This document shows positions 5,165 through 9,445 of a DNA stretch of 46,512 bases, piece by piece; positions within the stretch are counted from its first letter, which is position 1, and every line of letters starts with the position of its first letter. The stretch spans positions 1 through 46,512 of the forward strand of contig JASHOG010000078.1 in the NCBI GenBank assembly GCA_030041225.1, read 5' to 3'. Below the pieces are notes generated by a model. It saw only the letters and a list, made by a program, of their open reading frames with translations, did not search any database and was not told where the DNA came from. The position numbers and the translations under genes are program-made. This stretch comes from Vulcanimicrobiota bacterium (GTDB lineage: Bacteria > Vulcanimicrobiota > Vulcanimicrobiia > Vulcanimicrobiales > Vulcanimicrobiaceae).

Positions 5165-5503
5165 ATGAAAGGAATTAATCCGGCGACCCCGCCATCCGGA
5201 ACCGGCTGCGTCGAGTGCCTGGCGGAGCACGGCTGGTGGTTTCACCTGCGGCGATGCACGGAATGCGGCCACATCGGTTGCTGCGACACCTCCCCGAAGC
5301 AGCACGCGACCGCACACTTCCATCACACGGGGCATCCCATCATTGCGAGCTTTGAGCCCGGCGAGGATTGGTTCTACGACTACACGACGGAGGAGATGAC
5401 GCGCGGCCCGCATCTCGCGCAGCCACGCTGGCATCCGAAGGAGCAGCCGGTGCCCGGCCCTGCCGGCGCTGTTCCCAGGGACTGGGAGTCAAAGCTCAAC
5501 TAG
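5165..5503 (+). CDS. UBP-type zinc finger protein
   Basis: A 112-residue protein almost entirely made of a ZnF-UBP domain. Metal ligands are visible as CVEC (residues 15-18), CTECGHIGCC (32-41) and the histidine-rich run HATAHFHHTGHPI (47-59). The tail EDWFYDYTTEEM is the usual end of these bacterial single-domain proteins. In eukaryotes the domain binds the free C-terminus of ubiquitin; in bacteria the partner is not known. A ribosome-binding site (GAACGGAG) stands ahead of ATG 5165. The 3' end overlaps the convergent GNAT gene by 15 bases. Confidence 0.9.
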   Translation: MKGINPATPPSGTGCVECLAEHGWWFHLRRCTECGHIGCCDTSPKQHATAHFHHTGHPIIASFEPGEDWFYDYTTEEMTRGPHLAQPRWHPKEQPVPGPAGAVPRDWESKLN

Positions 5504-6848: not shown

Positions 6849-8609
6849 ATGCTCCCACGCATGCGTCCTTTCCCTCCCGGCTTCCGTTTCGGCGTTGCGA
6901 CGGCCGATCACCAGTGCGAGGCATATGACGGACGCGATGACATCCGCGACGTGTGGGAACGCGAGCGCAAGCTGACGCCGCGCGGACGCGCAACCGATTT
7001 CTGGAACCGGTTCCGAGAGGACGTCGACCTCGCCCGCGGCCTCGGTTGCACTGCCTTTCGCCTTTCACTCTCATGGGCGCGGCTGGAGCCCTCGCCCGAA
7101 ACGTGGGACGACGCCGCCTTTGCGCACTATCGCGACGTCTTGCAGTACATGCGCGACGCGGGCATTGCGACGATCGTCACGCTGCACCACAACACGTGGC
7201 CGCTGCACGTGCAGCAGGTTGGAAACGGCGCCGGCATGCTCGATCCCAGCTTCCCCGATCGCTTCGCGCAGTACGCGAAGGTCGTTGCGGAGCGGCTCGG
7301 CGATCTCATCGACTGGTACGTGACGCTCAACGAACCGAATCAGTTGCTCTACGGCTACGTGAAGCTCTGGTGCATGCGCAACTATGCGGTGCCGCCGGGG
7401 CTCGGCGACGCATCCTCAGCGGAACAAATGGAGGCGTTGCTCAAGCTCATTCCAAATCTCTTTCTCGCGCACGCGCGTGCACGCGCCGCAATTCATCGTA
7501 GCCGTCCGCACGCGCTCGTCGGCGCGAACCCGCTCGTGCTCGGGCTTCCGCGCTGGCTGCAACGCTGGGTTGACCGTGCGGCGACGCACCTCAAGAGCCC
7601 AGACGACCTGCGCGCGCAGGCACGGCACATCTCCCAAGCGGCGATTCTCGACTGCGGGCGCGTGGACGTCTCGATCGCGCAGATCGAGATGACGCACGAG
7701 CGCATGGAGCACGTGCTCTTCTCGCAGCCGTATGAGAACATGTACGCCGTCGCGATGGCCTTCGGAAGCCACGCGCTGCTCGATGCCGTCAACGCAGTCA
7801 TTCGCGGCGCGCCTGGTACGCACATACGGGAGAACGATAGATCGCTCGAGGCGATTCGCCGCCGCGGCGTGCTGCGCGTCGGCGTCCAGCCCAATCCGTC
7901 GCAGCCCGAGCTCGACCTCGCGCGCTCCGTCGCGCAGCGGATCCTCGGCGACGGATCGAGGATCGAGTTTGTGACGCTGCGCGACGAGGACCGCGTCGAT
8001 GCGACGCGTTCGTGGCTGCGCGCCTTCGACGCCTTTCGCAAGACGCTCTCAATGTTTGCGACGATGCTCGGGACGAACTGGTGGAATCTCGGCATGTCCG
8101 GCCGGCTCGCGCCTTTTCTCTGCCCACAGGAATGCGTCGGCGCGCTCGACTACGTCGGGCTCGACTATTACTGGGGCGTGCCGTCGATACGCCCCTCGCA
8201 GCTCGAGCGGTTGCTCTCGGCGGCAGAGTGCCGTTACGGAAATGCACCGGTCTGGCCGGGCGTTCTCTATGACATCCTGCGGGAGCAGCAAAGGGACTTT
8301 CCCGGGAAGCCGATCATCGTCATCGAGAACGGCTGCGTAACCACTGCCGACCGAGTTGCGCGCTATCAATACATCAAGCGTCATCTCGAGAGCGTGCAGC
8401 GCGCCGCCGCCGACGGCATTCCGGTTCAGGCCTATATTTGCTGGAGCATCACGTCGAATCGCGAGTGGGGGCTACCCTTCAACGATGCCAGCGACTTCGG
8501 CCTCTACCATATCGACCTTGACACGGATCCGGCTCTCACGCGCGTTCCCACCGCCGCGTCTGCGCGCTACAAAGAGATCATTGCAGCGCGCAGTGCCGAC
8601 GTCCCCTGA
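6849..8609 (+). CDS. Glycoside hydrolase family 1 enzyme with an embedded solute-binding-protein-like insertion
   Basis: A 586-residue GH1 protein, about 100 longer than usual. GH1 hallmarks occur in order: FRFGVATADHQCEA, FRLSLSWARLEPS, TLHHNTWPLH, the acid/base motif TLNEPNQ, DYVGLDYYWG, the nucleophile motif IENG, and WSITSNREWG. Between the fourth and fifth barrel units, residues about 266-385 do not look like GH1. They contain GRVDVSIAQIEMTHERMEHV, LFSQPY, LLDAVNAVI and then IRRRGVLRVGVQ, LDLARSVAQRILG and IEFVTLRDEDRVDA, all hallmarks of family-3 solute-binding proteins but with the C-terminal elements before the N-terminal ones. No signal peptide, so cytoplasmic. ATG 6849 or 6861 may be the start; neither has a clear ribosome-binding site. 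The stop overlaps the next gene (TGATG). Confidence 0.92.
   Translation: MLPRMRPFPPGFRFGVATADHQCEAYDGRDDIRDVWERERKLTPRGRATDFWNRFREDVDLARGLGCTAFRLSLSWARLEPSPETWDDAAFAHYRDVLQYMRDAGIATIVTLHHNTWPLHVQQVGNGAGMLDPSFPDRFAQYAKVVAERLGDLIDWYVTLNEPNQLLYGYVKLWCMRNYAVPPGLGDASSAEQMEALLKLIPNLFLAHARARAAIHRSRPHALVGANPLVLGLPRWLQRWVDRAATHLKSPDDLRAQARHISQAAILDCGRVDVSIAQIEMTHERMEHVLFSQPYENMYAVAMAFGSHALLDAVNAVIRGAPGTHIRENDRSLEAIRRRGVLRVGVQPNPSQPELDLARSVAQRILGDGSRIEFVTLRDEDRVDATRSWLRAFDAFRKTLSMFATMLGTNWWNLGMSGRLAPFLCPQECVGALDYVGLDYYWGVPSIRPSQLERLLSAAECRYGNAPVWPGVLYDILREQQRDFPGKPIIVIENGCVTTADRVARYQYIKRHLESVQRAAADGIPVQAYICWSITSNREWGLPFNDASDFGLYHIDLDTDPALTRVPTAASARYKEIIAARSADVP
7644..8010 (+). other. Region of the GH1 gene encoding a permuted SBP-family-3-like lobe
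   Basis: Codons for residues about 266-385 of the GH1 protein. The first half encodes the segment that in amino-acid-binding proteins precedes lobe 2 (VDVSIAQ, THERMEHVLFSQPY) joined directly to the C-terminal helix segment (GSHALLDAVNAVI). The second half encodes the N-terminal segment (RRRGVLRVGV, DLARSVAQRILG, FVTLRDEDRV). Lobe 2 is absent. Boundaries are estimated by eye from where GH1 similarity stops and resumes. Confidence 0.6.
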
Positions 8610-9445
8610 TGCATCGCGGCATCTATGCGGCGGTATTGACGCCGATCACGAGCAGCTTCGAGCCCGACGCGCAGAAAGCCGTCGCGTACTATCGCGACCT
8701 GCTCGCGAGCGGCTGTGACGGGCTCAACCTGCTCGGAACGACGGGTGAGGCGATGTCGTTCAGCGCCAACCAGCGGTTGCGTTTTATGGAGGCAATCGCT
8801 CGGAGTGGCCTCCCGATGGAGCGGATCTTCTGCGGCACCGGCGCCGCCTCGCTCGATGATGCGATCCTTCTGACCCGGGCCGCCGCTGCGCTCGGCTTTG
8901 CTGCGGCGCTGGTTATGCCGCCGTTTTTCTATCGTGAGGTGGGCGATGACGGCATCGTCGCGTTCTTTGATGCGCTCCTCGCTCGCATGTCGGAGCATCA
9001 AGCGTTGCGCATACTCCTCTACAACTTTCCCCGCATGAGTGGGATCACGTTCGACGCAGAGCTCGTCGAGCGTCTGCTGCGCGAGTTTCCGGGCATCGTC
9101 GTCGGCATGAAGGACAGCTCGAACGATCGCGACCTGCAGCGGTCGCTGCTCGCTTCGCACAAAAGCTTCGCGATGTTTCCCGGCTCTGAAGAGTACCTTG
9201 CGGAGGCGAAGGGCTACGGCGTTACAGGATGTATCTCCGGCAGCGTCTGCCTCTGGCCCCGGCTGGCGCAGGATGTCTTTCGCAGCGGCGATCCGGAGCG
9301 TGCGCGCGAGCTCGCCACGTTGCGTGCCGGCCTCGCCGGCGCTCCCTTCATTCCCGCGGTGCGCCGTCTCGTCGCGCGCGAGCGCAACGACCCCGCCTGG
9401 GAGGCCCCCATGCCCCCGCTCGCATCAGGCGAGCATGTACTCTAA
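8609..9445 (+). CDS. Dihydrodipicolinate synthase/N-acetylneuraminate lyase family aldolase
   Basis: A 278-residue class I aldolase of the DapA/NanA superfamily. Seen are GTTGEAMSF (the pyruvate-carboxylate-binding loop), YNFPRMSG with the catalytic tyrosine, and VGMKDSS with the Schiff-base lysine. The fold is a TIM barrel that condenses or cleaves pyruvate with an aldehyde. Its start overlaps the GH1 stop as TGATG, so the two are translationally coupled. That context argues for sugar-acid or sialic-acid-type breakdown rather than lysine synthesis, though the substrate is an inference. The 3' end overlaps the convergent flavoenzyme gene by 21 bases. Confidence 0.88.
   Translation: MHRGIYAAVLTPITSSFEPDAQKAVAYYRDLLASGCDGLNLLGTTGEAMSFSANQRLRFMEAIARSGLPMERIFCGTGAASLDDAILLTRAAAALGFAAALVMPPFFYREVGDDGIVAFFDALLARMSEHQALRILLYNFPRMSGITFDAELVERLLREFPGIVVGMKDSSNDRDLQRSLLASHKSFAMFPGSEEYLAEAKGYGVTGCISGSVCLWPRLAQDVFRSGDPERARELATLRAGLAGAPFIPAVRRLVARERNDPAWEAPMPPLASGEHVL

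Follow-up and report, generated by a model that had tools for sequence, protein, structure and literature searches.

In a TIM barrel, the β–α connections make up the catalytic face. The solved GH1 β-glycosidases closest to the protein described here (4r27, BGL167; 8kap, SGR_2426; 8in1) have the same barrel and catalytic glutamates, and the Gln and Glu of their sugar site are likewise common to its family; no solved GH1 carries its insert, which derives from a solute-binding protein (SBP). MltF is a lytic transglycosylase whose regulatory domain we take to be SBP-like, in keeping with a PDB match, 6hqh, that is named MltF. Engagement of this N-terminal domain by muropeptides switches the enzyme (PMC10746161). 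Natural circular permutation is represented by TpMglB-2 (type Ic), an SBP that retained ligand binding (PMC4990184), and domain insertion by engineered xylanase–xylose-binding-protein switches, in which ligand binding alters catalysis (PMC4536891, PMC4896006). In M. tuberculosis GlnH, Ser164, Arg169 and Asp250 hold the amine and carboxyl groups of the ligand, and Arg147, Trp232 and Thr162 hold the side chain of ligand Asp (PMC6069109).

Here we describe a GH1 glycosidase encoded in a 46,512-nucleotide stretch of DNA (the window) whose insert is, with certainty, one lobe of a family-3 SBP, circularly permuted and anchored at both ends in a single barrel loop. The features of the gene, in window positions, are as follows:

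6849–8609, + strand: gene for the GH1 glycosidase that contains the permuted SBP lobe; 586 aa, without signal peptide
6849–7622, + strand: N-terminal part of the GH1 barrel (β1–β5 and the helices that follow β5); residues 1–258, PF00232 match 7–226
7332–7334, + strand: GH1 acid/base Glu162 (TLNEP); E in 53/53 aligned GH1s
7623–8015, + strand: whole insert, between barrel strands β5 and β6; residues ~259–389, absent in L041–L043
7638–7808, + strand: SBP segment found C-terminally in ordinary SBPs; residues 264–320 (PF00497 positions 54–95, 5eyf 73–116)
7731–7745, + strand: junction left by deletion of lobe 2, between Tyr295 and Tyr299, from alignment with L068, L009 and L027
7806–7841, + strand: linker from the old SBP C-terminus to the old N-terminus; residues 320–331, pLDDT 48
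7839–8015, + strand: SBP segment found N-terminally in ordinary SBPs; residues 331–389 (5eyf 42–72)
8016–8606, + strand: remainder of the GH1 barrel, C-terminal to the insert, from helix α5 to the end; residues 390–586, second PF00232 stretch
8325–8327, + strand: GH1 nucleophile Glu493 (IENG); E in 53/53 aligned GH1s

Profile PF00232 matched the protein with E = 2.7e-47 (161.7 bits, cut-off 22.6) in two stretches flanking the interruption, the better of which covers residues 7–226, and the barrel motif FGVATADHQ begins at residue 14. AlphaFold2 modelling of the whole protein, from an alignment of 34 rows, gave a mean pLDDT of 82 and a pTM of 0.82. In the model, the strands of the N-terminal barrel part run from residues 13–17 through β5 (223–232), and the elements of the C-terminal part from strand 436–443 through helix 569–582. 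Since helix α5 spans residues 390–404 and strand 436–443 is β6, the model places the insert in the β5-to-α5 connection. Foldseek comparison of the model with the PDB matched the barrel fold to GH1 only, among the best 50 matches listed. The catalytic Glu pair, in its NEP and ENG motifs, is intact, and the protein is predicted to be a cytoplasmic GH1 β-glycosidase with catalytic activity.

The insert was delimited by aligning the protein to GH1s from its clade that lack it (L041–L043), giving 7623–8015; the sequence-only reading had placed the insert at 7644–8010, so its location stood and its edges moved outward. Within the protein, residues 267–308 matched positions 54–95 of 132 of the PF00497 (SBP_bac_3) profile, with E = 8e-6 and 26.1 bits for the whole protein (cut-off 26.4) and 29.9 bits as a fragment. 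Alignment to 5eyf revealed a swapped order, insert residues 16–58 falling on 5eyf 73–116 and insert residues 104–134 on 5eyf 42–72, and residues 294–320 of the protein matched 4ymx 217–243. The first segment (264–320) supplies β3, the TxxR loop, the FSxPY hinge strand, the return strand YAVAM and the last lobe-1 helix; the second (331–389) supplies RRRGVLRVGV, helix 1, strand 2 and the start of helix 2. All motifs cited in the earlier reading are present and follow the order claimed. The linker between the segments is much shorter than in full-length relatives (L068, L009 and L027). On its own, the window sequence gives modest SBP statistics; SBP origin and permutation are settled because relatives hold the complete insert, and a chance similarity was ruled out by these homologues (E = 2.6e-25 to 1.3e-9).

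In the AlphaFold2 model, the insert comprises strand 274–280, helix 283–286, strand 299–303 and helix 308–319, then the low-confidence linker, followed by helix 331–339, strand 342–346, helix 352–366, strand 372–376 and helix 379–385. As modelled, these elements are those of SBP lobe 1 in permuted order, and they rule out ordinary GH1 helices across residues 259–389; structure prediction, which had been proposed as a check, thus came out on the side of the SBP lobe. Folded by itself, the lobe adopted the same secondary elements as within the whole model. A Foldseek comparison of the isolated lobe with the PDB, which depends on chain order, gave no significant match (best E 0.07), and a Venus-flytrap protein was returned for this small permuted lobe at probability 0.23. 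The swapped order against 5eyf, the model and the homologues together confirm that a permuted SBP lobe is inserted in this GH1.

Scanning one genome for each species yielded 46 related loci. An insert of ~265–290 aa occupies the same GH1 site in most Eremiobacterota, in Nostocales, in Cyanosarcina and in some Chloroflexota, and PF00497 matched five of these full-length inserts with E-values of 2.6e-25 (L027), 1.3e-24 (L037), 3.9e-18 (L040), 5.6e-14 (L009) and 1.3e-9 (L014), at 38 to 89 bits and with the C-terminal part of the profile coming first. The canonical segment order was found in none of the full-length relatives; re-linearising the insert of L027, the protein of Chlorogloeopsis fritschii PCC 6912, yielded a single continuous match to positions 1–131 of 132. 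Against 5eyf, L027 aligned with E = 8.7e-38 (query 17–183 to 73–239, query 219–285 to 9–75), and against M. tuberculosis GlnH (6h1u) with 5e-34, again in swapped order. These inserts are complete two-lobed SBPs, circularly permuted, cut in helix α2 and with the old ends linked. The search for homologues sharing the insertion, which had been proposed as a check, thus found them, mostly with a complete SBP in place of a single lobe. Most members reach the barrel a few residues after their start codon and have neither signal peptide nor lipobox, and the SBP module is therefore cytoplasmic.

The family is present in 52/149 Eremiobacterota genomes in a search of that phylum and is rare elsewhere, with 4/386 in a sample of cyanobacteria and 8/400 in a sample of Chloroflexota, the latter counted with or without the insert; no full-length relative was found on plasmid records. 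One member, L037, comes from a metagenome-assembled genome labelled Proteobacteria that sits among genomes of the Chloroflexota search, and its record name may be wrong. In two Eremiobacterota members (L077, L078), the β1–α1 region of the embedded SBP is longer by ~50–60 residues rich in Ala, Arg and Thr. Chloroflexota also have related GH1s that lack the insert (L041–L043, L099–L101, L103). The β5–α5 loop is 56–81 residues long in L100, L101 and L103, as against 34–38 in L041 and L099, and, judged from those three, this loop seems prone to expansion.

We looked to gene neighbourhood for hints of function, but it is not conserved in the family, and we therefore leave the substrate uninferred. 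Upstream of the full-length gene in some cyanobacteria and one Chloroflexota (L035 3–4825, L040 1203–4136, L027 499–4844) lie genes for a GMC oxidoreductase, a 3β-HSD-like epimerase, an α/β hydrolase, a P450 or a RoxA-like cytochrome, from which a lipid-like or terpenoid glycoside is conceivable as substrate. In the window, the final base of the GH1 stop codon is also the first base of a DHDPS-family aldolase gene (8609–9445; overlap TGATG), which may therefore be translationally coupled to the GH1 gene; this neighbour was not seen at the other loci examined. Also encoded in the window, at 5165–5503, is a protein of 112 aa that, although bacterial, bears a zf-UBP domain (ubiquitin-hydrolase zinc finger).

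Comparison with GlnH located the ligand site. The equivalents of Thr164, Arg169 and Asp250, together with the lobe-2 Thr, are all kept in 16/16 cyanobacterial inserts, position 250 being aligned to GlnH by motif (TDD versus ADD) from sequence alone. A Thr or Ser occupies position 164 in those 16/16 and in 4/4 Chloroflexota inserts, and in 0/9 truncated forms, which have Glu, Pro, Ala or Gly there. Full-length Eremiobacterota inserts retain Arg169 in 39/39, Asp250 in 35/39 and Thr164 in 26/39, and have mostly lost the lobe-2 Thr, which persists in the deep-branching L087, L088 and L089. This pattern suggests that, in Eremiobacterota, erosion of the pocket would have come first and excision of lobe 2 later in several lines. 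Specificity for Asp or Glu, to which the invariant Arg147 equivalent might point, was considered, but given Tyr, His or Phe at position 232 and Thr or Asn at position 162 in cyanobacteria, we limit the claim to an α-amino acid type. In the window protein, Glu280 stands at position 164, Arg285 is kept at 169, Arg382 is retained as the GlnH Arg147 equivalent, and Asp250 is gone with lobe 2, so that the contact set of Ser/Thr164, Arg169 and Asp250 is broken. With lobe 2 and the Thr/Ser lost, the window protein is probably not an amino-acid sensor, and the suggestion of an allosteric ligand-binding module, made from the window alone, is not supported for it.

That lobe 2 is missing, as had been noticed in the sequence, was corroborated both by alignment with relatives and by the AlphaFold2 model: the window protein lacks everything between FSQPY and YAVAM, which are the two SBP hinge crossings, and has no two-lobed cleft. 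The deleted stretch amounts to ~95–100 residues in relatives, and about a dozen residues of the β1–α1 region, after strand β1, are gone as well. Within the window genus, six genomes have the reduced form, G110 (L068) retains lobe 2, and in one more the contig breaks off short of the insert; further reduced forms were found in G086 and in two genomes from a different family (L074–L076). We mapped the loss on a tree built from the GH1 part alone. Truncation requires four changes on this tree (4–4 across the bootstrap range), and its starred branches force three. Holding all truncated rows together was rejected (AU p = 0.0003), and holding L002 with the window clade was not (p = 0.25); three independent losses of lobe 2 in Eremiobacterota are therefore well supported and four are likely. 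The ancestral insert was thus a complete two-lobed SBP from which the window clade lost lobe 2 secondarily. The single permuted lobe described earlier is correct for this protein, as a permuted lobe 1; the two-lobed original state of the module had not been foreseen.

Selection was estimated as dN/dS by the Nei–Gojobori method. Cyanobacterial pairs gave 0.10–0.15 for lobe 1, 0.07–0.20 for lobe 2 and 0.01–0.09 for the barrel; three pairs of the window clade gave 0.36–0.51 for lobe 1 versus 0.12–0.16 for the barrel, and two other pairs 0.12–0.21 for lobe 1, all of these values being rough owing to high dS in several pairs. Full-length forms show purifying selection on both lobes; in the remnant lobe 1 the constraint is relaxed and dN/dS is still below 1.

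We consider it likely that in the window protein, which descends from an ancestral two-lobed SBP insertion and whose lineage excised lobe 2, lobe 1 now serves as a structural loop, not as a sensor. The β5–α5 loop of the ancestor took up a whole family-3 SBP of the amino-acid type in circularly permuted form, cut in helix α2 beside the ligand pocket, the cut ends forming the barrel connections and the old N- and C-termini being joined through a linker. In the two-lobed form, binding of an amino acid would most likely close the lobes, and the closure may be passed through the cut helix α2, continuous with barrel helix α5, to the catalytic face; Arg147 and the 162–169 loop flank both SBP–barrel joints, and a ligand would therefore act at the joint. 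In the window lineage, lobe 2 was removed exactly at both hinge crossings, leaving lobe 1 as a structural barrel loop that has presumably lost sensing; the lobe is probably a remnant scaffold for the barrel loop. The full-length relatives, above all the cyanobacterial ones, are plausible candidates for allosteric, cytoplasmic, amino-acid-sensing glycosidases because they keep the amino-acid-binding residues and the catalytic pair and have no signal peptide. That they are in fact natural amino-acid-gated glycosidases of the cytoplasm, and that sensing was repeatedly lost by excising one lobe, we put forward tentatively, at a little under even chances.

Lobe 1 alone could still be regulatory in the window protein, with Arg285 and Arg382 binding an amino acid, or some other acid, so as to modulate the barrel, or with a site formed between two subunits. 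Equivalents of these residues are retained in 8/9 and 9/9 truncated forms, respectively, and lobe 1 is under purifying selection, but the invariant arginines may be structural, constraint on the lobe is relaxed relative to the barrel, the Thr/Ser at 164 is missing from every truncated form, the β1–α1 residues have gone and, without lobe 2, there is no amine-binding Asp; we hold such regulation to be improbable. Somewhat less unlikely, though still disfavoured, is that the insert was never allosteric and in all members shapes the aglycone site as a lid or as a dimer interface, its SBP ancestry being incidental. The insert does sit in a β–α loop of the catalytic face, the insert-less L100, L101 and L103 have other short expansions there, and pockets are degraded in many Eremiobacterota inserts. 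A conserved amino-acid pocket would be superfluous in a simple lid, however, and Thr164, Arg169, the lobe-2 Thr and Asp250 persist throughout the cyanobacterial inserts, with both lobes under strong purifying selection. A fusion of GH1 and SBP genes by misassembly or frameshift might be suspected where, as in Eremiobacterota, genomes are mostly metagenome-assembled; one open frame spans the gene in dozens of independent genomes from three phyla, cultured cyanobacteria included, and the truncated form recurs in several genomes of the window genus, which makes an artefact vanishingly improbable. The excision of lobe 2 from a two-lobed ancestral insert remains our preferred account.

We found no description of a GH1 with a permuted SBP insert in the open-licence literature, although one may exist elsewhere; a 2026 survey of domain insertions mentions neither partner, and a search of the PDB with the family profile returned no chain covering both the GH1 and the SBP parts. 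The earlier reading, too, knew of no such GH1. Components and principle are known; their natural combination is so far not known. The family displays a series of states, from no insert through a bilobed SBP with an intact pocket and then an eroded one to forms from which one lobe was cut out, repeatedly, at the hinges, and its natural pairs with and without lobe 2 in a single genus offer a handle on the gain and loss of allostery. It also suggests a possible coupling of glycoside cleavage to the amino-acid pool in some soil bacteria and in Nostocales.

Among known systems, 5eyf and GlnH (6h1u, 6h20) resemble the full-length relatives in sequence across the whole bilobed fold, and the relatives share the GlnH ligand triad of Ser/Thr164, Arg169 and Asp250 (PMC6069109); the present SBP differs in being permuted at helix α2, embedded in an enzyme and without a signal peptide, and the window protein further lacks lobe 2. 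TpMglB-2, by comparison, is a type I, sugar-binding, free-standing exported lipoprotein (PMC4990184). In MltF, the SBP-like domain is unpermuted and placed in tandem at the N-terminus of an enzyme of another catalytic fold in the cell envelope, whereas here it lies within a barrel loop. The engineered switches are laboratory-made, and in one of them the enzyme was placed inside the SBP (PMC4536891), whereas here a permuted SBP lies inside the enzyme. In joining an amino-acid SBP to a GH1 barrel, evolution has seemingly done as engineers do, permuting one partner and inserting it in the other.
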